In this document: in pieces, positions 18,853 to 29,111 of the stretch
How the letters are laid out: each line of letters begins with the position of its first letter
How positions within the stretch are numbered: the stretch's first letter is position 1
Origin: Pseudoalteromonas ulvae UL12
Lineage (GTDB): Bacteria > Pseudomonadota > Gammaproteobacteria > Enterobacterales > Alteromonadaceae
Direction of reading: 5' to 3'
DNA length: 64,000 nt
Assembly: GCF_014925405.1 (NCBI RefSeq)
Contig: NZ_AQHJ01000028.1
Span: forward strand, 398,979 to 462,978
Translations under genes and position numbers: made by a program
The notes under the pieces: generated by a model
What the model was told of the DNA's origin: nothing
What the model saw: the letters and a program-made list of their open reading frames with translations, nothing else
Database searches by the model: none

Positions 18853-20051
18853 CAGTCACCCCAGTAAAAAACGCCGTTGAATTTACCTCTTTTTCTGCCA
18901 AAGATGAGTCTGAAATCGAATTAATCGAATCATTAGTTGAGCGTATGGGTGCGCCGTTAATGATTTTAGATTGTGACGTGGTGCGTAACCAATATCGCGC
19001 GCTTGCGGCCGCTCTGCCAAACGTTATTTTACACTTTGCTCTTAAACCACTGCCTCACCCTGCGGTTGTGAGCACACTATTAGCTGAAGGCGCCTATTTT
19101 GACTTAGCTACCAATGGCGAAGTCGATTTAGTTGCCAGTCAGGGTGTGCCTGCCAATAAAACAATTCATACTCACCCAATTAAACGTGACAGCGATATTA
19201 AAGTAGCCCTTGAATATGGCTGTACAACATTTGTGGTTGATAATATCAATGAACTTGAAAAATTTATTCCGTATGCAGATAAGGCAGAAATTTTAGTTCG
19301 CTTAAGCTTTCCAAATGCACAAGCGTTTGCTGATCTCTCTAAAAAGTTTGGCTGCAGTCCTGATAAAGCGATTGAGATTATTGCTTATGCCCATCAGTTA
19401 AACATTACTGTGCGCGGGTTGTCTTTTCATGTTGGTTCACAAACAGCTAACCCTGAGAAATATGTACACGCTATCGGCCGCTGCGTTGAGCTGTTTTCAC
19501 AAGTTGAAGCGCTTGGGTTACCGACTCTTCACACCCTCGATATTGGTGGAGGCTTCCCTGTGACTTATTCCCAAGAAGTGATGCCAATTGATGAGTTTTG
19601 TGCACCTATTCGCCACGCACTCACGGCATTGCCTGCGTATGCACAAGTGATTGCTGAACCGGGTCGTTTTATTGTGGCTCCTTCTGTGACCAGTGTTGCT
19701 TCTGTAATGGGTCAAGCTGAACGAGATGGTAAAACTTGGTATTACTTAGATGATGGAATTTATGGTTCTTTCAGCGGCATTATGTTTGATGAAGGTAATT
19801 ACCCTGTTGATGCACTGTATTGGCAAGGTGAACGTTTTGAAAGTGTCCTTGCAGGGCCGACATGTGACAGCATTGATGTAATTGCAGAAAGTATCATGCT
19901 ACCAAAATTAAACAATGGTGATTTAATCATAGGTCGCATGATGGGCGCATACACTAGTGCCACCGCAACAGAGTTCAACTTCTTCAAAAAGGCGCAATTT
20001 GTGATCCTAAATGAATATCATGCTGTCGACTCATTAAGCCAAGTTATCTAA
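18849..20051 (+). CDS. Ornithine decarboxylase-family (type III PLP) enzyme
   Basis: A fold-type III, eukaryotic-like PLP decarboxylase of 400 residues that would turn ornithine (or possibly lysine) into a diamine. The PLP lysine lies in HFALKPLPHP near residue 67. Other expected elements are FDLATNGEVDLV, the glycine loop LDIGGGFP, the phosphate-binding AEPGRFIV and the cross-subunit catalytic Cys in GPTCDSID. With aguAB it supplies a second route to putrescine. GGAGA lies just before the ATG. Substrate choice between ornithine and lysine cannot be settled by eye. Confidence 0.9.
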   Translation: MTVTPVKNAVEFTSFSAKDESEIELIESLVERMGAPLMILDCDVVRNQYRALAAALPNVILHFALKPLPHPAVVSTLLAEGAYFDLATNGEVDLVASQGVPANKTIHTHPIKRDSDIKVALEYGCTTFVVDNINELEKFIPYADKAEILVRLSFPNAQAFADLSKKFGCSPDKAIEIIAYAHQLNITVRGLSFHVGSQTANPEKYVHAIGRCVELFSQVEALGLPTLHTLDIGGGFPVTYSQEVMPIDEFCAPIRHALTALPAYAQVIAEPGRFIVAPSVTSVASVMGQAERDGKTWYYLDDGIYGSFSGIMFDEGNYPVDALYWQGERFESVLAGPTCDSIDVIAESIMLPKLNNGDLIIGRMMGAYTSATATEFNFFKKAQFVILNEYHAVDSLSQVI

Positions 20052-20114
20052 GGTCATAAACGCTTTTATACTCGCGTTGGTGACATCAGTTGATGGCTAT
20101 TTTAAATGGGGTTT

Positions 20115-20151
20115 AAATGGGGATTCTTGAGGTAAAGTGAGATCCCCATTT
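20115..20151. other. Inverted repeat after the decarboxylase gene
   Basis: AAATGGGGAT and its exact complement are separated by 17 bases; a second copy of TTTAAATGGGG lies just before it. There is no T-run, so it may be a transcript-end stabiliser or weak terminator. Confidence 0.35.
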
Positions 20152-20211
20152 GAGCAATTGAAGACTGTCCAATTCTCACTTCGTATAAAAATCTATAAAG
20201 CTAATGGCTGG

Positions 20212-20775
20212 TTACTTTTGTTTTGTGGCCGGGTCAGCAAGTGTCACACTATACTCAACAGCAAAAAATTCGCCATGCTCATCTTTATGAATGTAGTCAC
20301 TGACTTTGTTCATACCTAGTTTTTTCATTATGGCAATAGAGGCAATGTTATCGACCAAAGCGGTGGCCGAATACTGCTTAATTGCGCGCTGTTGCAAAAG
20401 TGTTTCCATCACCGTTTTGGCTGCTTCTGTCGCAATCCCTTTACCCCAATGCTTTTTGAAAAAACGCCAACCTAGTTCCAGGTTATTTCGTTGCGGAGAA
20501 TCAGAAAAAAAGCACATAGGTCGCACTAATACCCACCCATACGGTTCATTATTGATTACATCACTCACCAGCCATAATCCATGCCCTAGGGTTTGATCGG
20601 CATATCGAGCCAAGCGAGGTAAAAACTCATTTATTACTTGCTCTTTGCTGGAGGTGCGACCTGAGGTTAAATACTTCATGACTTCTGGATCGTGATCAAC
20701 TTGATAAAGCAGCTCAGCATCGCGCTCAGTAATGAATGAAAACTGTAAACGTTCAGTTGCAGTGATTTGTATCAT
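20212..20775 (-). CDS. GNAT acetyltransferase, RimJ/RimL-like
   Basis: The 187-residue protein has the layout of ribosomal-protein N-acetyltransferase relatives (Acetyltransf_3): LQFSFITERDAELLY at the start, NLELGWRFFKKHWGKGIATEAAK as strand plus acetyl-CoA loop, and VDNIASIAIMKKLGM near the C terminus. Many such enzymes in this group have unknown substrates and are not true RimJ. It stands alone. Confidence 0.85.
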   Translation of the reverse strand: MIQITATERLQFSFITERDAELLYQVDHDPEVMKYLTSGRTSSKEQVINEFLPRLARYADQTLGHGLWLVSDVINNEPYGWVLVRPMCFFSDSPQRNNLELGWRFFKKHWGKGIATEAAKTVMETLLQQRAIKQYSATALVDNIASIAIMKKLGMNKVSDYIHKDEHGEFFAVEYSVTLADPATKQK

Positions 20776-20876
20776 ATATTAAAGGTCAGTCCATTTTGGC
20801 TGTGATATTGATTTCGTTCTACATTGTAGATTACAGATTGTTTAAAGATAAAAAGCCTTATTTGAACACAACTTAG

Positions 20877-21074
20877 TTAAGCAGCGTTTAAATAAGACTC
20901 TTGGCCTTTATGTTTTTGAGTACGTTTAAACGCGCCCTTGCCTTTTTTAGCCGCCACAACTTGTACTCTAAATACTTTTGAGGTCACTAAAGCAGCTAAT
21001 GCGTTATCTTTGATCACACCGCGGCCGATTTCGCATTTAATATTTTGATTAGATTTACTTTTTTTATTCGCCAT
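20877..21074 (-). CDS. arfA: Alternative ribosome-rescue factor A
   Basis: A basic protein of 65 residues. The core IKDNALAALVTSKVFRVQVV followed by KKGKGAFKR matches the ArfA family, which recruits release factor 2 to ribosomes stalled on non-stop mRNA when tmRNA is lacking. The N terminus is also basic (NKKSKSNQNIK). In E. coli the arfA mRNA is cut or terminated inside the coding region so that tmRNA normally destroys the product; a 9-bp inverted repeat in the last 50 bases here may do the same. Confidence 0.85.
   Translation of the reverse strand: MANKKSKSNQNIKCEIGRGVIKDNALAALVTSKVFRVQVVAAKKGKGAFKRTQKHKGQESYLNAA
20884..20933 (-). other. Inverted repeat inside the 3' end of arfA
   Basis: GCGTTTAAA and TTTAAACGC are separated by 32 bases within the last 17 codons of arfA. 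In the mRNA they could pair to a long hairpin. In E. coli a hairpin at this place is an RNase III site that creates a non-stop arfA mRNA. The loop is long and the stem AU-rich, so the call is tentative. Confidence 0.4.
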
Positions 21075-21235
21075 TTTATTTCCTATCTTTATTGTGGACT
21101 GATTAAGTCATAGATACCTTCACGATGAAAGGAACACGGCTACTATAATCGGGGTGTTAAATTTTACTAGTGCTTTGCAAAAATATTTTTAATTATTAAT
21201 TGATCGCAACCATAAAACACTGCGTATAGAGTGAT

Positions 21236-21325
21236 GAAGGGCATAAAACGCAACACTATGTTTTTATCTGACCCCTTCGCGATATTAAACCCACAGCCTT
21301 TGTACAATGAAGGCTGTGGGTTTTA
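21236..21325 (+). ncRNA. Candidate small RNA between arfA and hemH
   Basis: The 415-base gap between the divergent arfA and hemH genes holds two stacked stems. The first pairs GAAGGG (21236) with CCCTTC (21273), extended by ATAAAA with TTTTAT. The second is a strong terminator. TATAGA lies at 21225-21230, at the right distance to start transcription at the first stem; the -35-like TTGATC is 19 bases further up. No coding frame of useful length is present. The promoter is weak, so this is only a candidate. Confidence 0.3.
21287..21324. terminator. Orphan intrinsic terminator upstream of hemH
   Basis: A 14-bp perfect stem (AAACCCACAGCCTT and complement) with a 9-base loop, followed by TTTT on the plus strand. 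No protein gene ends here, as both flanking genes start on either side. Rightward use is favoured by the longer T-run. Confidence 0.75.
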
Positions 21326-21489
21326 ACGTTTAATCTGACCATTGGGATCACCAGGTTACTGTGTTGTCATAATACAATTAAGTGAGTTAAATTGCCTAAT
21401 TGCTTTATTTTATTAAGATAAGTCATACCAATGTGAATTCTTGCCATTATAATGCCACTGTATTTGAGTCATAAGCAAAGGAGCTTCAT

Positions 21490-22509
21490 GTGTCACGCTT
21501 TTCAGCCATTACTGATAATCCCCATGAACAACGTTTTAACCAAAAAACCGGGATTTTACTGACAAATTTAGGCAGCCCAGATGCGCCGACGACCAAAGCG
21601 GTGCGCACCTATTTAGCTGAATTTTTGTCTGATCCCCGCATTGTAGAAATCCCACGTTTGATTTGGCTGATGATACTGCATGGTATTATTTTACGGATCA
21701 GGCCAAAACGTTCTGCCAAGCTTTATCAAGGTATTTGGACTGATAATGGCTCTCCCTTAATCCATATCACCCAATTACAGCAACAAAAACTACAAGATAA
21801 ACTTCATTCGTTGGATCTCAATCATGTCGATGTAGTGATGGCGATGCGTTATGGTAATCCCTCTATTGAAGCTGGCCTTGAAGCCTTACGGGATAAAGGC
21901 ATTACTAAAATTATTGTTTTTCCTTTATATCCACAGTACAGCAGCCCAACCACAGGGTCGACTTTTGATGCTGTGGCCAATGTATTGAAAAAATGGCGCT
22001 GGGTGCCTGAACTTCATTTTATCAATGGCTATCATAAACAGCCGTCGTACATTGATTCGTTAGCCAACAGTATTGCTGAAGATATTGCTGCACATGGTCA
22101 ACCACAAAAAATCGTATTTTCATATCATGGCATGCCAAAACGTTTTCTCGATCATGGCGACCCTTATCATTGCCTTTGCCAGCAAACAACACGTCTGGTA
22201 ATTGAAAAGCTCAACCTTGATAAAGAAGCTGTAATTACTACCTTCCAAAGCCGTTTTGGAAAAGCCGAGTGGTTAAAACCTTATACAGATGAAACGTTAG
22301 CAAGCCTTCCGGCACAAGGCATCAAAAATATCGCCATTGTCAGCCCTGCTTTTAGCGCAGATTGCTTAGAAACTCTTGAAGAGTTAGAAGAAGAAAATCG
22401 AGAAATATTCATCAACGCAGGGGGTGAGCAATATCGATACATTGCAGCCCTTAACGATAGAGATGATCACATCGATGCCCTGTTTGATGTGCTCAAGCCT
22501 ATGCTTTAA
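21490..22509 (+). CDS. hemH: Ferrochelatase
   Basis: HemH inserts Fe2+ into protoporphyrin IX in the last step of heme synthesis. The 339-residue protein has the N-terminal GILLTNLGSPDAP, the conserved His in FSYHGMPKRF, and the acidic C-terminal metal site region SPAFSADCLETLEELEEENRE. The start is GTG, with AAAGGAG 6-7 bases upstream; an ATG overlapping it is out of frame. The gene stands alone, preceded by an orphan terminator. Confidence 0.97.
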   Translation: MSRFSAITDNPHEQRFNQKTGILLTNLGSPDAPTTKAVRTYLAEFLSDPRIVEIPRLIWLMILHGIILRIRPKRSAKLYQGIWTDNGSPLIHITQLQQQKLQDKLHSLDLNHVDVVMAMRYGNPSIEAGLEALRDKGITKIIVFPLYPQYSSPTTGSTFDAVANVLKKWRWVPELHFINGYHKQPSYIDSLANSIAEDIAAHGQPQKIVFSYHGMPKRFLDHGDPYHCLCQQTTRLVIEKLNLDKEAVITTFQSRFGKAEWLKPYTDETLASLPAQGIKNIAIVSPAFSADCLETLEELEEENREIFINAGGEQYRYIAALNDRDDHIDALFDVLKPML

Positions 22510-22523
22510 TAAGTGTTCATTTT

Positions 22524-22547
22524 CGGCCTCTGATGAGGCCGGTTTGT
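22524..22547 (+). terminator. Intrinsic terminator after hemH
   Basis: A 7-bp GC-rich stem CGGCCTC/GAGGCCG with loop TGAT, followed by GTTTGTT, 15 bases after the hemH stop. Confidence 0.65.
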
Positions 22548-22686
22548 TAACCCAATCGAACGTTTAACGCTGCTTTACAACGCAATCAAACAAATGAGTT
22601 ATTGGCCAACACAGCTCATCTAATCTTACTCACCTAGCCAATGGTAAGCTGATACAGCCGCTTTTTTAGCCGTTGTGTCGGTTAAA

Positions 22687-23538
22687 TTAGAGCTTGATGA
22701 CTTCGATACTGCCACGCTTTTGCATCGTGACATACAACGTATCTTCACTCGGGTTGAGTGCCACATTTGTCGGATGCTGACCCTTTAACTGATAAGTTTT
22801 AAGCACTTTGCCTGCTTTTGATAGCTTTACAACCGTACCACTGCCATAACGGGCAATATACAAGTGACCAGCAGAGTCAGTGCGCATGCCATCGAGTCCA
22901 AAATCGTCAAAACGTATAAATTGGCGTTTATTACTAATCTGGTAATCTGAATCTAAGTCATACGCCCACACGACCCGTTGCACACTTTCATTAACAAATA
23001 ATGTTGTTTGATCGGCGCTAACCGCCACTCCATTGGTCGTACCCATATTTTTTTCTAACAGCAGTGAGGTGCTATCCGGGCTCACCCGCCATAATTGTCC
23101 AGATGAGTCGGCCCAATTAGGATCGCTGGCAAAAATGAATCCGCCATTAGTGACAGCGATGTCATTTGGTTGGTTAAAATTGGGGTTATGGGCTAAAACG
23201 GACACCTCTTTTGTTTGGGTATCTACTTTCAATACATTGTGGCCGGTGTAATCGGCCACCAGCAAGTCCCCATTAGCATCAAATTGCAAACCATTGCCGG
23301 TACTGCCTTTTGGCAAAGTGACATACAAAGAAGCCTCTCCCGAGGGGGTGACGATACCGATGGTGCCTTCTTTAGCAAAATTAACAGCAAAAAGCTGCCC
23401 CTGTTTTGACACAACCGGCCCTTCAACACCTTGGGTAAAGATATTATCCATAACAAAATCTTGGCTATCAGTTGCAGCTGCATCAAGGGTGCCACACGCT
23501 GATGCCATGAATAGTAATGATAAAAATGTTGCTCTCAT
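22687..23538 (-). CDS. SMP-30/gluconolactonase-like beta-propeller protein
   Basis: An exported protein of 283 residues; the signal ends in MASAC, which fits a lipoprotein. The rest is a run of beta-propeller blades of the SMP-30/NHL type, with repeated patterns such as GNGLQFDANGDLLVADY, NQPNDIAVTNGGFIFASD, TNGVAVSADQTTLFVNE and LDGMRTDSAGHLYIARYGSG. Family members are calcium-dependent lactonases, but the reaction here is unknown. Gene stands alone. Confidence 0.8.
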   Translation of the reverse strand: MRATFLSLLFMASACGTLDAAATDSQDFVMDNIFTQGVEGPVVSKQGQLFAVNFAKEGTIGIVTPSGEASLYVTLPKGSTGNGLQFDANGDLLVADYTGHNVLKVDTQTKEVSVLAHNPNFNQPNDIAVTNGGFIFASDPNWADSSGQLWRVSPDSTSLLLEKNMGTTNGVAVSADQTTLFVNESVQRVVWAYDLDSDYQISNKRQFIRFDDFGLDGMRTDSAGHLYIARYGSGTVVKLSKAGKVLKTYQLKGQHPTNVALNPSEDTLYVTMQKRGSIEVIKL

Positions 23539-23653
23539 AATGTTTTCACTGGTTATTATTTTAGTGATAGATAAACAGCTTTATCACTATGGGTCAACTA
23601 GCTATAGGTCGCATCTAACAGGCTGCAACCTATGTTGAGTTGACTTCATTTAC

Positions 23654-26600
23654 TTAAAGTAACGTTTTTTTAAAGTCACACTTTGGATATGAGGAGCAAG
23701 TAAAGGTTGTGCCGCCACTTTCATCTGTTGATTGCTCAACTGTAGATAAACATTGTGGACAAAATGCAACAGCCTGACTAATAAATTGCTGTTCGCCTTC
23801 ATCACAATTATGTTTTTCGTCTAGCTCTTCGCTTTGCGCTTGTATCACTGCGTGAATAGCTATCGGTGCTGTTTGCTCTGTTTGCTCTGTTTGCTCTGTT
23901 TGCTCTGTTTGCTCTGTTTGCTCTGTTTGCTCTGTTTGCTCTGTTTGCTCTGTTTGCTCTGTTTGCTCTGTTTGCTCTGTTTGCTCTGTTTGCTCTGTTT
24001 GCTCTGTTTGCTCTGTTTGCTCTGTTTGCTCTGTTTGCTCTGTTTGCTCTGTTTGCTCTGTTTGCTCTGTTTGCTCTGTTTGCTCTGTTTGCTCTGTTTG
24101 CTCTGTTTGCTCTGTTTGCTCTGTTTGCTCTGTTTGCTCTGTTTGCTCTGTTTGCTCTGTTTGCTCTGTTTGCTCTGTTTGCTCTGTTTGCTCTGTTTGC
24201 TCTGTTTGCTCTGTTTGCTCTGTTTGCTCTGTTTGCTCTGTTTGCTCTGTTTGCTCTGTTTGCTCTGTTTGCTCTGTTTGCTCTGTTTGCTCTGTTTGCT
24301 CTGTTTGCTCTGTTTGCTCTGTTTGCTCTGTTTGCTCTGTTTGCTCTGTTTGCTCTGTTTGCTCTGTTTGCTCTGTTTGCTCTGTTTGCTCTGTTTGCTC
24401 TGTTTGCTCTGTTTGCTCTGTTTGCTCTGTTTGCTCTGTTTGCTCTGTTTGCTCTGTTTGCTCTGTTTGCTCTGTTTGCTCTGTTTGCTCTGTTTGCTCT
24501 GTTTGCTCTGTTTGCTCTGTTTGCTCTGTTTGCTCTGTTTGCTCTGTTTGCTCTGTTTGCTCTGTTTGCTCTGTTTGCTCTGTTTGCTCAAGATTAGTTG
24601 TGTTGCCCCAATCCGGATCAAGAGATAAATTAGCAAATAAGTTTTTCTTTTCAACTACTTCCTCTGGATCCACAAGGGTTTTAGGATCGTTGCGAATTTC
24701 AGGTTTCAACCCTTTAGCGGCCTCTTGAGGCTTAAACTCCATTAAATGTGGATCAGTCGAGTCAACGCCATCGAGTTGTAATGATGGTTCAGAATCGCTC
24801 TGTTCATCTGTTTTATGATGACTTGACTGTGCCTGCATATCATCTGAGCTGAGATTTTGTGCCTCTTTACTTTGATAAGAAGGTTTATTTTGGCGCTCTT
24901 TGATTTCATCAACAACTGATTCAGGCTCTGGAACATATTCACGCACCACAGGCTCTTTAAATTGGTGCTCAGTATATTGATGGGTTCGTTTAGCCTCTTT
25001 AGCCAATTCCATCGCATCGATGTGTGCAATGGTATCGACATCAAGACCGTCTTCCTGAGCTTCTGGTTCAGACACTAAGGCGTGCTCGTTTGCTTCATCG
25101 ATTTTTTCTTCGAATGATGGTTGCTGTGCTTTGTCATCCTCGATTGTTTTGTTCACCGTTATTTCATCTGTCTGGAAGGATGGCTCTTCAATTGGCTGCT
25201 GAGCAGTTGCCTTTTCTTCTTGGCTTTTATCGTCTGAATCGACTGTTTTATCCTTTGCAGCCGTTGAGTTGATATCATCGATAAATGCTGCTGGGCTGAC
25301 AAACTCACCGATATCTTGATCTACCTCTTCATTATGGATTGAGGGTTTTTCTAGATCAGCTTGAGTGATATGCCCTAAAGGCGATTGATCATCGCTCGGT
25401 TTCGCTGTTGTATTCGTTGCTACATTCGTTGAGATGCGCGCCGAAGATTGTTCATTCTGAGGGTTATTATCAGACTCTGTGTCTTTCTCCTCAGCTGGGC
25501 TTGCAGAGGCAATAAAACCATATTGATCGACAGGTGTTTGATCTTGTTGATGATATTGTTCATTAAAGCGCTCAGTCAATACCTGTGTAAAATGTTCGAC
25601 CTGTTCATCCATGTATTCAAGTTGCTTTATTCCTTTAATGGTGTCTATAAGTGCATGACGATGAATAATATTTTCTGGCATCGGTGATTTAAACGTCACG
25701 GAGTCATGAAACATCACTATCGGCTTTATCCCTTGTGAAATATCAAGCAATCGACCTAGAGCCATTGATAATTGATTCGCCAACTGTAATGGATTATCGA
25801 ATGGGACCGTTTTGTCATCAAGCTGCTCTGACCATTGTGCAGCATTAGTTCCACCAAAAACTGCTCCTTTGACTTCTGGGGCGACAACAACAAAAATACC
25901 AAAAGCAGAGACAATCACACGTTCAATACTTTTGCTTTTATCTCCATCTATAGTGATGGCCAGCTGTTTAAATGACGAATAAAGTTCTGGATCGAGTCCT
26001 TTTGATAAACGCTTCTTTTTACTTTTATCACGTTTAACAGCTTGAGATTTTTCAGTTACTTTGTCCGTTACTTTAGCAGCCAAAACAGACGTTTTGTTTT
26101 TAATCGTGGCCATGCGCCCTTTTACCAACCAAATCCCTCCCACTACAATTAACAATAAGGCGATGATTGCGAATGTTGGAATAAGTAAATCTGCAAATAA
26201 TGATTGCTCTTTTTTTACGGGTGCTGCGGGTAAGTCAGGCGCTGATTTTATCGCGGTTTTCGCTTGCTCTTCCACAGTCGATACAGCACTCACTGACGGA
26301 TTCGTTTGCTGTTCTTGTTCATATAACGCCTTTAACTGTGCTTGTTTTTCGTGTGTATCTTGATCTTGTTCAGCCAAGCTTTCTTTAGGCGTTGAATCGT
26401 TTAACTGGCTAGTGGCCTCTCGAGCTTGAGTTGAGTCTTGCTCATTTTGTATAGGCTGTTCGGCGGGCTGACTGATTGACTTTGCGTGTGTTTGTTGTTC
26501 AATTGGCGCAAAGGTACTCACTGCAGATTTATCTTCTGTAACGTGCGCTTTTACCTCAGGTGTCGTGATAGCTGGTGTTGATTTTTTTTTGGGTAAATCT

Positions 26601-26782
26601 CGGCAATCACGATCATAGCTTCTTTTCGCATCTCGATATTGTCGACTATTTGGTACATGACTAAATTGCGACACCTGCTGATTTAATAACAGACAAAGCG
26701 CCTCTTGATTAGGTGCAGCAGACAACGCAGAACTAACAAATAGCGAGAAAAATAAAAGTGAGAGTGAACCAGAGCTAGACAT
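23654..26782 (-). CDS. Membrane-anchored NERD-domain protein with TEQ repeat and zinc ribbon
   Basis: A 1042-residue protein. In order: a signal-like N terminus, a Glu/Gln-rich region, one membrane helix at about 199-221 followed by a very basic stretch (so the rest is probably cytoplasmic), and a region at about 264-400 that resembles the nuclease-related NERD domain (SIERVIVSAFGIFVVVAPEVKG, then WSEQL and FDNPLQLANQLSMALGRLL). Then come about 330 acidic, disordered residues, roughly 80 TEQ repeats at 732-970, and a C-terminal topoisomerase-type C4 zinc ribbon (FCPQC and the Cys pair in CSSYPKC). NERD plus this zinc finger is a known pairing. Function unknown; the family is thought to act on nucleic acid. 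Confidence 0.8.
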   Translation of the reverse strand: MSSSGSLSLLFFSLFVSSALSAAPNQEALCLLLNQQVSQFSHVPNSRQYRDAKRSYDRDCRDLPKKKSTPAITTPEVKAHVTEDKSAVSTFAPIEQQTHAKSISQPAEQPIQNEQDSTQAREATSQLNDSTPKESLAEQDQDTHEKQAQLKALYEQEQQTNPSVSAVSTVEEQAKTAIKSAPDLPAAPVKKEQSLFADLLIPTFAIIALLLIVVGGIWLVKGRMATIKNKTSVLAAKVTDKVTEKSQAVKRDKSKKKRLSKGLDPELYSSFKQLAITIDGDKSKSIERVIVSAFGIFVVVAPEVKGAVFGGTNAAQWSEQLDDKTVPFDNPLQLANQLSMALGRLLDISQGIKPIVMFHDSVTFKSPMPENIIHRHALIDTIKGIKQLEYMDEQVEHFTQVLTERFNEQYHQQDQTPVDQYGFIASASPAEEKDTESDNNPQNEQSSARISTNVATNTTAKPSDDQSPLGHITQADLEKPSIHNEEVDQDIGEFVSPAAFIDDINSTAAKDKTVDSDDKSQEEKATAQQPIEEPSFQTDEITVNKTIEDDKAQQPSFEEKIDEANEHALVSEPEAQEDGLDVDTIAHIDAMELAKEAKRTHQYTEHQFKEPVVREYVPEPESVVDEIKERQNKPSYQSKEAQNLSSDDMQAQSSHHKTDEQSDSEPSLQLDGVDSTDPHLMEFKPQEAAKGLKPEIRNDPKTLVDPEEVVEKKNLFANLSLDPDWGNTTNLEQTEQTEQTEQTEQTEQTEQTEQTEQTEQTEQTEQTEQTEQTEQTEQTEQTEQTEQTEQTEQTEQTEQTEQTEQTEQTEQTEQTEQTEQTEQTEQTEQTEQTEQTEQTEQTEQTEQTEQTEQTEQTEQTEQTEQTEQTEQTEQTEQTEQTEQTEQTEQTEQTEQTEQTEQTEQTEQTEQTEQTEQTEQTEQTEQTEQTEQTEQTEQTEQTEQTEQTEQTEQTEQTEQTEQTEQTEQTEQTAPIAIHAVIQAQSEELDEKHNCDEGEQQFISQAVAFCPQCLSTVEQSTDESGGTTFTCSSYPKCDFKKTLL
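23871..24589. repeat. 9-bp tandem repeat, about 80 perfect copies
   Basis: The unit GTTTGCTCT (plus strand) is repeated 79 times without a single change, then a partial copy ends in GTTTGCTC. On the minus strand it encodes Thr-Glu-Gln inside the NERD-domain gene. The unit is three codons long and contains no stop in any frame, so all six frames stay open and changes in copy number never shift the reading frame. Confidence 0.98.
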
Positions 26783-26908
26783 AAAAATAAGTGTTTGTAT
26801 TGATTTATATTTAGCTTACTTGTTTAGTGCCCATTTTTCCATTACAACTTATTGCAAAAATCAGGATGCTAGGCTTATTTGTCCTTATTTTTAGATTAAA
26901 TTTTCGGA

Positions 26909-27184
26909 TCAGAAACTGAGTTTTTCTATTTGTGTCAGTCCAATTCGCCCGTTTAAGTCTTCAAATACTGACACTATGGCTGGATATGGGGAGGAATGAG
27001 GGGCCACTTGGATTGCATTACATAAAAATGCGTAGTTAGTACCTTGATTATTTTCCGTCGATACAGCGACAGGCTCATATAATACAGCGTCAATGCCCGT
27101 TAAAGCACTGGTAAATACCAGCCGCGCTTGGGGGCTAATCTCATGGCTGAATTCTTTAGGCCCATTGTTGAAATGGTTTGACAT
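26909..27184 (-). CDS. Small hypothetical protein
   Basis: A soluble 91-residue protein with no signal peptide. The pattern SALTGIDAVLYEPVAVSTE, then GTNYAFLCNAIQVAP and PAIVSVFEDLNGRIGLTQI, looks like a helix followed by an antiparallel sheet, somewhat like cystatin-fold small proteins. I do not recognise a named family. It lies alone between the NERD gene and a DsbA-like gene, all on the same strand. Confidence 0.6.
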   Translation of the reverse strand: MSNHFNNGPKEFSHEISPQARLVFTSALTGIDAVLYEPVAVSTENNQGTNYAFLCNAIQVAPHSSPYPAIVSVFEDLNGRIGLTQIEKLSF

Positions 27185-27316
27185 TACTGATTCCCTGTAA
27201 CTTTTTATTAAATAGTGTGTGCATTAAATTTGTATTAAAACACTATAGTCAATTTACTCAGTTTGTCAGTGTAGCTCGTTGCATTAAAAACATTATTACA
27301 CTCTATTACAATCGGT

Positions 27317-27931
27317 TCAGTCTAACAGCTGCTTAATCCGACTAAAGGTGTCTTGCCATTGTTTGTAATTAATTTTTATTGCAGTGACATGGCCTTCGTG
27401 CATTAAAATCAATGAAGGAAAACCCGTTATTGGCCATTGATGTACCCTTTCTATTTCTGTCAGTAATTCATCTTGTATTTGAGGACTGTTTAATAACGTT
27501 GCAAACTCGTCTGAGGGAATGCCAATATCGTGTGCTAATGATATTAAGGTTTCATCATCTGAAGGGTTTTGCGCATTGAGGTAATAAGCCTGTTGAATGG
27601 CAAAATACATCTGGGCTTCTTTATCAAATTTACGTGCGATAAGCGCCGCCCGACAGGCCGGATAAGTTGACCTCCTAGGGTGACATTTGAGCCAAAAATC
27701 AAAATTAAAATCAACATTTAACTGCTTACTTATTGTGCGCCATGTTTGCTGTAAATGACTCTTCATTTGTTGGCTCATCGGTTGATGGCAATCGGGAGCG
27801 AGCCCACCTAATCGATATTTAACTGTGACAAAAGGCTTCAATGCCTGTTCTAACATTAACCACGTTTTTCGGTATCCCCAGCACCAACTGCACATTGGAT
27901 CATAAATGTAATAGAGGGTTGTATTTTGCAT
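27317..27931 (-). CDS. DsbA-family thioredoxin-fold protein (FrnE-like)
   Basis: A 204-residue thioredoxin-fold protein with active-site motif CSWC in YIYDPMCSWCWG, followed by a helical insert and a cis-Pro loop in ITGFPSLILM. It has no signal peptide, so it is probably a cytoplasmic oxidoreductase of the DsbA/2-hydroxychromene isomerase superfamily rather than the periplasmic DsbA. Partner unknown. Confidence 0.85.
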   Translation of the reverse strand: MQNTTLYYIYDPMCSWCWGYRKTWLMLEQALKPFVTVKYRLGGLAPDCHQPMSQQMKSHLQQTWRTISKQLNVDFNFDFWLKCHPRRSTYPACRAALIARKFDKEAQMYFAIQQAYYLNAQNPSDDETLISLAHDIGIPSDEFATLLNSPQIQDELLTEIERVHQWPITGFPSLILMHEGHVTAIKINYKQWQDTFSRIKQLLD

Positions 27932-28038
27932 GACGCTTCCTTCAAGTGAGCTTAAAGATTAGCGCAAACATCACGAATGCTCCAACAAACCGTGCGTCAT
28001 GGTAATGTTAAGTATTTTTAAAGGGGTATCTAAATAAA

Positions 28039-28065
28039 AGCACAGCCTTGGTTGGAGGCTGTGCT
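28039..28065 (-). terminator. Intrinsic terminator of the outer-membrane protein gene
   Basis: A 10-bp stem AGCACAGCCT/AGGCTGTGCT with a 7-base loop; read on the minus strand it is followed by TTTTATTT. It lies about 210 bases beyond the stop of the beta-barrel gene, in the 340-base gap before the DsbA-like gene. I see nothing else in that gap. Confidence 0.65.
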
Positions 28066-28273
28066 GAGTTGGGAAAATCAATTGCAAAAATAGTGGATAA
28101 TAAGCTTCCCCATTCTTCTATCCATTGCTGCGACGAAGTGTGTGTGGGTAAACTGTGAGATGGACAATACAGCCGACTGTACGTTCATTTTTCAATAAAA
28201 TGATGAAAGGTCAATTTTAAGGATGAATGGCCAAACTGAGCTTTTAGCCGTTACATACCTCAGCTAATATTAT

Positions 28274-28987
28274 TTACAACCGATATTCAAAGTTGATATA
28301 GGTTTTATCAATCGACATATAACTAAAATGGCTGTAACCCGCTTTTAATCCCCAATCATCACTGAAGTCATATTGGATCCCCACTCCTAGTTTTGCACCC
28401 GCTTCTAACTCTGTTGACCGAGCAACATTCACCCGCGTATAAGGTGTTGATTGTGTACTTCGGTTATAAATAGTGGCATCTATTTTATGAATTGCGATCC
28501 CCCCTAGCATGTAAGCGGATAATTTAGGCGTGAAATGGACTGGATAATAGGTGGCATCAAACTCAAAAATATCCATATTTATAGTATAATAATCTCGTTG
28601 CTTTGCTTGCGAGGGTTCGCAACCAAGCCAGCAGACATCGGTAAACACATCACCTAAAAAATCAATTTCGATATCAGCGACATAATTAAATCGCAGCGCT
28701 AAATCATCATAAAGATAATAGCCAATCGCTAGGTTGTAATTAACAATATCTGACTCATCTCCTTCAACTTGGTACTTTTCAAGTCGATCCGTTATTTTGC
28801 TTGGTAGCGCATCTTTTACATCTTGGTTTTCATACTCATAAAAACTACTCAGCGCCCCGCCATTAAAGAAAAACCGCCCTTCTTTTGGCAATGAGTGTGA
28901 TACTTGCGTATCGGATGTTTCTGCGACTGAATGCAAACTAATGGTCGCGAAGAGTAAACCGATGAGATTGCTTGAATGTAGATTCAT
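28274..28987 (-). CDS. Outer-membrane beta-barrel protein
   Basis: A 237-residue protein with a signal peptide (LIGLLFATISLHSVA) and alternating strands typical of a small OmpA/OmpW-like eight-strand barrel: VNYNLAIGYYLYDDLALRFNYVAD, LSAYMLGGIAIHKID, KLGVGIQYDFSDDWGLKAGY and a C-terminal strand with many aromatics. Two Cys (VCWLGC) sit in a predicted outer loop. No specific function can be read. Confidence 0.75.
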   Translation of the reverse strand: MNLHSSNLIGLLFATISLHSVAETSDTQVSHSLPKEGRFFFNGGALSSFYEYENQDVKDALPSKITDRLEKYQVEGDESDIVNYNLAIGYYLYDDLALRFNYVADIEIDFLGDVFTDVCWLGCEPSQAKQRDYYTINMDIFEFDATYYPVHFTPKLSAYMLGGIAIHKIDATIYNRSTQSTPYTRVNVARSTELEAGAKLGVGIQYDFSDDWGLKAGYSHFSYMSIDKTYINFEYRL

Positions 28988-29111
28988 ATCTTAACCTTGG
29001 TACGTTCCTAATTTGGCGCAATCATACCTGCTGGATATCGATAAATAACTAAGTAATTTGTTAGAAAATGTATCGATTTTTTATACTAGGATAGGGTGTT
29101 TAAAAGGTAAG

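Follow-up and report, generated by a model that had tools for sequence, protein, structure and literature searches.

The 64,000-nucleotide stretch of Pseudoalteromonas ulvae UL12 analyzed here (contig NZ_AQHJ01000028.1, positions 398,979 to 462,978; hereafter the window) carries a perfect tandem array of a 9-bp unit, ACAGAGCAA, inside an open reading frame (ORF) of 1042 residues on the minus strand (23654..26782). The array is a genuine, extreme coding minisatellite, and this kind of repeat is already known. We consider it probable, at roughly 0.62, that it is a recently expanded in-frame minisatellite in an acidic spacer between a membrane-anchored body with a degenerate NERD domain and a zinc ribbon. 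What stands out most is that the homologue in genome G128 has another array at this linker, together with the uncharacterized protein family to which both belong.

To describe the array as DNA, Tandem Repeats Finder was run on the window and reported a period of 9 at 23869..24589, with 80.1 copies, 100% matches and no indels. A direct count gave an unbroken period-9 run of 721 bp. On the minus strand, the run reads as 79 consecutive ACAGAGCAA units (23873-24583), all identical as DNA with zero synonymous changes. These units encode (Thr-Glu-Gln)79 at residues 734-970 of the protein, with LEQ before and TAP after them. The first-pass annotation had described about 80 perfect 9-bp repeats with 79 unchanged copies, which the count bore out. 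Of its coordinates, 23871..24589, the end was correct and the start lay 2 bp inside the run. Its statement that the unit is three codons long and has no stop in any frame was also right, and the six translations of the unit (TEQ, QSK, RAN, LLC, CSV, and ALF) were all open.

Because the unit is open in all six frames, three extra ORFs of 243-264 residues overlap the array in the ORF list. A second coding product over the array was rejected, since these ORFs are by-products of the stop-free unit and nothing was found in their support. At a score of 50 or more, a single further array was reported in the window, of 2.4 copies of 16 bp, so chance is excluded as the source of the repeat. Furthermore, exact two-unit matches in the source genome (G000) numbered 78, and all of them lay inside the array. 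The run therefore has two defining features of a coding minisatellite: a short in-register unit (within about 6-100 bp) repeated far beyond chance, here 80.1 times at 100%, with a unit length of 9 bp, a multiple of three, and an ORF that continues through the array. An on/off switch of the phase-variation type, driven by slippage, was rejected because gain or loss of a 9-bp unit leaves the reading frame unchanged and the unit contains no stop in any of its frames. The idea that structured DNA drives the expansion was rejected as well. Eight units folded as single-stranded DNA to 0 kcal/mol on either strand, and 200 of 200 shuffled controls folded at least as well. An RNA element was also rejected, with no Rfam match obtained in 20000-29000 at gathering scores.

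The homologues of the protein were searched in 108 genomes of the genus, of which 38, including that of the window, gave a match at an expectation value (E) of 1e-10. For the full-length comparison, 14 of the other 37 were taken, namely the 12 best-scoring genomes together with G060 and G107, which matched at the N-terminus only; other matches limited to the N-terminal part or to NERD were left out. With the window protein and the additional protein P0002, 16 proteins were compared (the 15 homologues being L113-L126 and P0002). The array protein is a member of an uncharacterized membrane-anchored Pseudoalteromonas family. The motif F.NL.LDP was present in 16 of 16 members, near the C-terminus and behind a poorly conserved acidic region. 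In the window protein it reads FANLSLDP (residues 716-723; 24614..24637) and ends 10 residues ahead of the array.

The linker between FANLSLDP and the ribbon in G128 consists of nine EPENTI/ELENTI units (18 bp, 9.2 copies, 95% match), in the order LFANLSLDPNWG...(EPENTI/ELENTI)9...zinc ribbon. The two linkers share no unit, and their lengths are 237 residues in the window and 56 in G128. However, the glutamate fraction is 0.33 in the window versus 0.34 in G128, and neither linker contains lysine or arginine. The segment after the array was the best conserved part of the two proteins, with 29 of 55 aligned residues identical (53%), compared with 92 of 206 (45%) in the transmembrane (TM) helix plus NERD, 69 of 179 (39%) in the N-terminal part, and 102 of 308 (33%) in the acidic region. 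A different array at the same linker with equal glutamate density supports a hypermutable acidic spacer and not a conserved unit or length. Thus, the comparison of these two species supports the view that the linker is a site of independent expansion, where what seems to be kept is a ribbon on an acidic spacer. Conservation of the TEQ repeat in orthologues was rejected, since the unit in G128 is EPENTI and no other protein of the 16 has a ribbon behind a spacer. With regard to the first-pass annotation, its proposed comparison of the array among orthologues did yield an array at the same linker, although with another unit and another length. Its view of the array as a linker to the ribbon was upheld in position by G128, and weakened by the lack of a ribbon in 14 of the 16 proteins.

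The ribbon itself is a C4 zinc-ribbon-like segment at residues 1008-1040 (23663..23761), with the four-cysteine spacing CxxC...C...C in the form CPQC...CSSYPKC. All four cysteines are kept in G128. The Pfam model PF01396 (topoisomerase-type zinc ribbon) gave 17.8 bits, under its gathering score of 32. When the ribbon profile built from the window protein and G128 was compared by hhalign with ribbons from four NERD proteins, the probability was 94.4% with the cysteines aligned, so that the zinc ribbon predicted earlier behind the array is indeed represented by such a segment. A protein search with the ribbon alone returned no match. Among the 16 proteins, the C4 ribbon was found in two, those of the window and G128.

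The NERD-related domain (residues 262-359; 25706..25999) matched PF08378 at 27.8 bits against a gathering score of 22.1 (E 3.9e-6). The same model matched 14 of the 16 proteins at E 0.01, and the two proteins without NERD, by alignment and by pattern, were those of G060 and G107. An aspartate and an ExK motif form the catalytic signature of the nuclease-like NERD core. In the window protein, E287, V300, and P302 occupy the positions of the D, E, and K of the NERD protein L054. Among 13 aligned NERD-bearing family members, the lysine was missing in 13 and the glutamate was kept in two (G034 and G003). Since these ExK residues are missing, the domain is unlikely to be a nuclease, and in the family as a whole it is probably inactive, judging from the alignment. 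The NERD-like part named in the first-pass annotation is thus retained as a NERD-related domain without the canonical residues.

To place this loss in context, other NERD loci were inspected by pattern. ExK was intact in 12 distinct loci (L016, L017, L019, L020, L023, L024, L026, L031, L032, L033, L037, and L054; L059 repeats L020 and was not counted). Many other membrane NERD homologues from the genus had no ExK, for example L018, L021, L022, L025, L027-L030, L034, L036, L052, L056, L058, L060, and L062. The loss is therefore not peculiar to the family of the array protein, and its use as a special mark of that family was weakened. With regard to a fold of the PD-(D/E)XK kind, the AlphaFold model placed an alpha/beta core at residues 291-380, with a predicted local distance difference test (pLDDT) score of 63-89 by block. 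A fold search of the Protein Data Bank (PDB) with the N-terminal/NERD model gave no match at E 0.001 or better (best 0.33).

The remaining layout of the protein, all on the minus strand, was assigned from hydropathy, composition, and alignment. Homologues share the N-terminal layout. A putative signal peptide covers residues about 1-23 (26714..26782), where hydropathy windows at residues 5-6 exceeded 1.6 and AlphaFold predicted a helix at 4-20 with a pLDDT of about 50. It is followed by a two-cysteine segment, C30-C60 (26603..26695), which is presumably periplasmic. In this segment C30, L32, Q36, Y49, A52, R54, and C60 are invariant across the 16 proteins, and AlphaFold predicted a helical hairpin (helices 26-39 and 47-60, block pLDDT 58-84). 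A TM helix lies at residues about 196-220 (26123..26197), with a 19-residue hydropathy maximum of 2.8 at 199-217; the membrane anchor claimed earlier corresponds to this maximum, which starts at residue 199. The sequence C-terminal to the helix is rich in lysine and arginine, mainly lysine, which suggests that NERD, the acidic region, the array, and the ribbon are cytoplasmic.

The acidic low-complexity region extends over residues about 403-715 (24638..25576), and the net charge over residues 391-733 is -51. The earlier claim of an acidic disordered region before the array therefore stands for its acidity and low complexity, and the disorder is suggested by composition only. The AlphaFold model of residues 1-401, built on a three-sequence alignment, had a mean pLDDT of 54.4 and a predicted template modeling (pTM) score of 0.31, with low confidence outside the 291-380 core and the 26-60 hairpin. 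In PADLOC-DB, no family matched at E 1, and an anti-phage defense protein was rejected on that basis. The sole NCBIfam match was a collagen-like adhesin at 9.3 bits, far under the cut-off of 500.

The preferred explanation for the array, an in-frame minisatellite expanding in the acidic spacer, can be outlined as follows. An in-frame seed, for which the flank already reads LEQ-TEQ, would have expanded by slippage or unequal recombination at the DNA level. The same processes would gain and lose 9-bp units and keep the units identical. That all units are identical suggests a turnover faster than point mutation, and a unit of three codons without a stop in any frame leaves the protein intact whatever the copy number. 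Selection may ask only for a long, hydrophilic, and strongly acidic spacer (one-third glutamate, no lysine or arginine), and not for the unit or for one length. With such a spacer, the ribbon could function some distance away from the membrane-bound part. We infer slippage as the cause, the disorder of the spacer, the tethering, the binding of nucleic acid or protein by the ribbon, and a nearly neutral copy number. The tether is plausible, and tuning by copy number is speculative.

Several observations weigh against this explanation. The ribbon is below the Pfam gathering threshold and was unmatched in G128 at E 0.01. The 14 proteins without a ribbon indicate that the core role of the protein does not need one, and a tether role cannot be general. 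Ribbon-less L123 and P0002 have a longer repeat of another kind ('DDLKQADDALASYLES...') before F.NL.LDP, so the birth of arrays in this protein is not limited to the linker. The copy number comes from one strain of the species, so its variation is a prediction. Finally, AlphaFold, run on the array piece with no alignment, predicted that most of the array is helical (mean pLDDT 63.7, pTM 0.26). By block, the pLDDT was 70-86 for roughly the first 110 residues, 41-63 in the central part, and 54-77 towards the end. If correct, this model would mean a rod and not a loose tether. We distrust the model, and its modest to low confidence leaves the flexibility of the spacer as itself inferred.

The array is real in the assembly. 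However, the number 80 is provisional and may be wrong. An artefact of assembly, in which the true array would be shorter or longer and the roughly 80 units would come from collapsed short reads, is unlikely but has to be taken seriously. G000 is a draft of 34 contigs, with the window on contig G000:C27, and a 16S rRNA search of this genome gave a single match, starting 136 bases into its own contig. The genus Pseudoalteromonas normally has many rRNA operons. With one match at a contig end, rRNA operons and long repeats look as if they had been collapsed, as happens when short reads are assembled. The number of units counted in a perfect array of 721 bp is therefore not to be taken at face value. 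A similar break was seen in P0001, a Pseudoalteromonas tunicata protein marked as partial on a 2873-bp contig. It is identical to the G128 protein in 766 of 772 residues and ends a single residue short of where the repeat units of G128 begin, a sign that assemblies may break at such arrays. In Borg elements, according to the available text of the report, repeat numbers were indeterminable where arrays exceeded the insert length (PMC9879509). On the other side, there is no N within the array or in the remaining 399 kb of the contig. The same contig carries a 1.1-kb array (103-bp unit, 10.8 copies, 99% match), which corresponds to 11 tRNA-Val genes, and a 1.06-kb array (148-bp unit, 7.2 copies, 97% match), so this assembly is not wholly incapable of long tandems. 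A partly wrong number would still mean a long perfect array. Protein searches returned no near-identical copy of the array gene, and the protein of the window itself was likewise not among the matches. A search with ferrochelatase for further strains gave one match at 100% and two at 94% from ENA, and yielded none for comparison.

The role of the array can be read in other ways than as a tolerated acidic spacer. Copy number might be a heritable setting, shifted by slippage and selected for adjustability, that sets the reach between membrane and ribbon. Two species with unlike arrays at one and the same linker, the frame-preserving unit, and the fourfold difference in linker length (237 versus 56 residues) would fit such a device. 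By a random-coil rule of thumb these linkers would span on average roughly 15 nm and 6 nm. However, the evidence comes from one strain, most of the homologues compared have no ribbon, and like arrays occur where no interdomain reach is involved, such as a BamE C-terminal tail, which fits tolerated expansion. We therefore consider tuning rather improbable. A markedly improbable reading takes the array, with its 79 negative charges, as a mimic of nucleic acid or a competitor within the same molecule, which would mask the ribbon or repel nucleic acid, so that length sets the strength of autoinhibition. Glutamate at every third residue, the lack of any basic residue, and the equal density in the different array of G128 agree with this polyanion; but the preceding 343 residues are already net acidic, so the array adds more of the same. 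The helical single-sequence model would allow the TEQ stretch to be one long rigid helix of about 36 nm, at 0.15 nm per residue, that holds the ribbon at a set distance. We give this very little credence, since the five models disagree (mean pLDDT 34.7-63.7) at the low pTM given above, and seven of the nine units in the G128 array carry proline, so the role cannot need a helix there. Known stable single helices have alternating opposite charges, and the array has no such alternation.

To search for similar arrays in other genes, a (TEQ)15 peptide was compared with 196 genomes of the family, and 24 of them matched at E 0.01, including that of the window. Perfect TEQ arrays were found in four of these genomes (that of the window, G180, G186, and G159), all built of ACAGAGCAA. 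The others were an array of 10.8 units in a protein encoded between genes for 3-dehydroquinate synthase (AroB-type) and a D12-class adenine methyltransferase (Dam-type), a C-terminal one of 6.7 units in an open frame of 188 residues, and one of 6.0 units close to the N-terminal end of a TPR protein. The first of these proteins has no Pfam match itself and lies at what we take to be the DamX position. When five exact units were sought in 84,980 species genomes, four contigs were found, all read in the TEQ frame. Three were the family loci (a Colwellia metagenome-assembled genome (MAG), an Alteromonadaceae MAG, and Gayadomonas joobiniege), and the fourth encoded the C-terminal tail of a BamE-domain protein in an OM182 bacterium. 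By their titles, all four belong to Gammaproteobacteria, the class in which OM182 bacteria are placed. A search at class level covered 369 genomes and matched 26, including that of the window. It added one further TEQ array, in a TPR protein that we take to be MshN-like, built mainly of the synonymous unit ACAGAACAG (12 of 15 units).

Related arrays were also found in DnaX. In five genomes of the genus g27, which has eight genomes in the family sample, the interdomain linkers carried (V/A)EQ arrays of 12, 23, 14, 11, and 8 units; DnaX was identified by Pfam for one of the five proteins and by eye for the other four. These DnaX-type proteins, from five species, are those of L085, L086, L087, L092, and L096, and each contains stretches homogenized to one unit, differently in each case. 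Thus, arrays of the xEQ kind recur in linkers and tails of unrelated proteins in these bacteria, and that of the window was the longest among those found in these searches.

Other arrays were seen in passing. A near-neighbor unit, ACAGTGCAA, occurs in 4.6 copies in L069 (1498-1538) and, read from the opposite strand, encodes LFALFALFALF within the hydrophobic N-terminal part of a protein of glycosyl hydrolase family 43. In L073 (1496-1530), a related 9-bp array of 3.9 copies lies at the C-terminus of an RnfD-family protein in the NKA frame, and the FMN-binding gene that follows has an open frame which likewise runs into it, in the KQS frame. The viral contig L175 (2073-2108) has four exact ACAGAGCAA units close to the N-terminal end of an open frame of 251 residues with no Pfam match. 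On the contig of the window, the tRNA-Val array is L140 (12820-13926; G000:C27:272819-273927), with eleven tandem tRNA-Val (GAC) genes at a period of 103 bp and 99% match. The 148-bp array is L142 (G000:C27:316868-317930), and a 139-bp array lies nearby as L141 (G000:C27:285684-285992). By eye, the start of the 148-bp unit resembles that of the 139-bp unit, and the two are perhaps one dispersed repeat family.

Whether the nine-base unit is special was considered from codon usage. By the codon usage of the window, the probability of ACAGAGCAA given TEQ is 0.074, and that of three out of three other family arrays using it is 0.0004. When up to 3 mismatches were allowed in the 196 family genomes, the unit was found in 8 (4 exact) and the reversed unit in 1. 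Among viral contigs, one had the unit and none the reversed unit. Also in favor, the four perfect TEQ arrays of the family sample all use it, and the four contigs from the species genomes are all gammaproteobacterial. Counting against a special status, the test was post hoc with tiny numbers and codon usage from one genome, and the TEQ array outside the family mainly uses ACAGAACAG. A special status of the unit at the DNA level is a lead, not a result. We hold it highly improbable that the full combination applies, in which the linker would be an evolved expansion site where unrelated acidic arrays of one-third glutamate are repeatedly born, copy number would be a heritable setting of ribbon reach, and ACAGAGCAA would itself be prone to expansion in Gammaproteobacteria of the sea, where five or more unrelated genes would each have acquired it independently and always in the TEQ frame.

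Provided that the copy number holds, few features of this kind in a bacterium would be expected to match this coding minisatellite in length and perfection. Since a second species grew a different array of equal charge density at the same linker, a general question becomes testable in one gene: whether selection acts on linkers for composition and rough length only, with the unit left to chance, or for length itself. The finding also draws attention to an uncharacterized Pseudoalteromonas membrane protein family in which the NERD-related domain is probably inactive and the FxNLxLDP motif is strongly conserved.

No published account of this array or of its protein family was found in searches of open-licence papers. 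Bacterial coding variable-number tandem repeats (VNTRs) or minisatellites, such as the loci used in multilocus VNTR analysis, are in-frame tandem arrays in coding regions that are expected to vary by slippage. The window shares the in-frame coding array, with a high copy number and no drift between units, and is known from one strain. The xEQ arrays of the DnaX, DamX-position, and MshN-like proteins are likewise perfect or near-perfect 9-bp (T/V/A)EQ arrays in linkers or tails. However, they have 6-23 units compared to 80 in the window, and their host proteins are unrelated. The order of NERD followed by a C-terminal C4 ribbon of the topoisomerase type is shared with L054 and L020, identified by Pfam, and with L037 and L019, identified by alignment. 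These proteins have about 260-270 residues, an intact D...ExK, a short spacer, and no array, whereas the window protein has no ExK and a spacer of several hundred residues.

SmdA of Staphylococcus aureus is the closest parallel for the body of the protein. As described in the available text, it has one TM helix and a cytoplasmic NERD-related domain without several conserved residues, is enriched at the septum, and needs conserved C-terminal residues for function (PMC9040797). The window protein resembles it in having one TM helix and a presumably cytoplasmic NERD-related domain without key NERD residues, and in its conserved C-terminal residues. SmdA has 302 residues, and no acidic region, array, or ribbon is described in that text, in contrast to the 1042 residues and all three elements here. 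The likeness is one of outline and does not extend to a known role of the Pseudoalteromonas protein in division.

For the array, the closest parallel is with Borg elements. According to the available text of that report, their ORFs contain perfect amino-acid tandem repeats (aaTRs) whose DNA units are multiples of three in length. These repeats are commonly disordered, are of recent and independent origin with unique units in eight TolA homologues, and vary in copy number inside one population (PMC9879509). The aaTRs described there are pervasive in archaeal extrachromosomal elements, whereas the window, part of a bacterial contig, has a single long array built of a short unit. Both systems share perfect DNA repeats inside an ORF, a unit that is a multiple of three, disorder-promoting residues, an origin that is recent and independent, a copy number that is uncertain in some assemblies, and different units in homologues.

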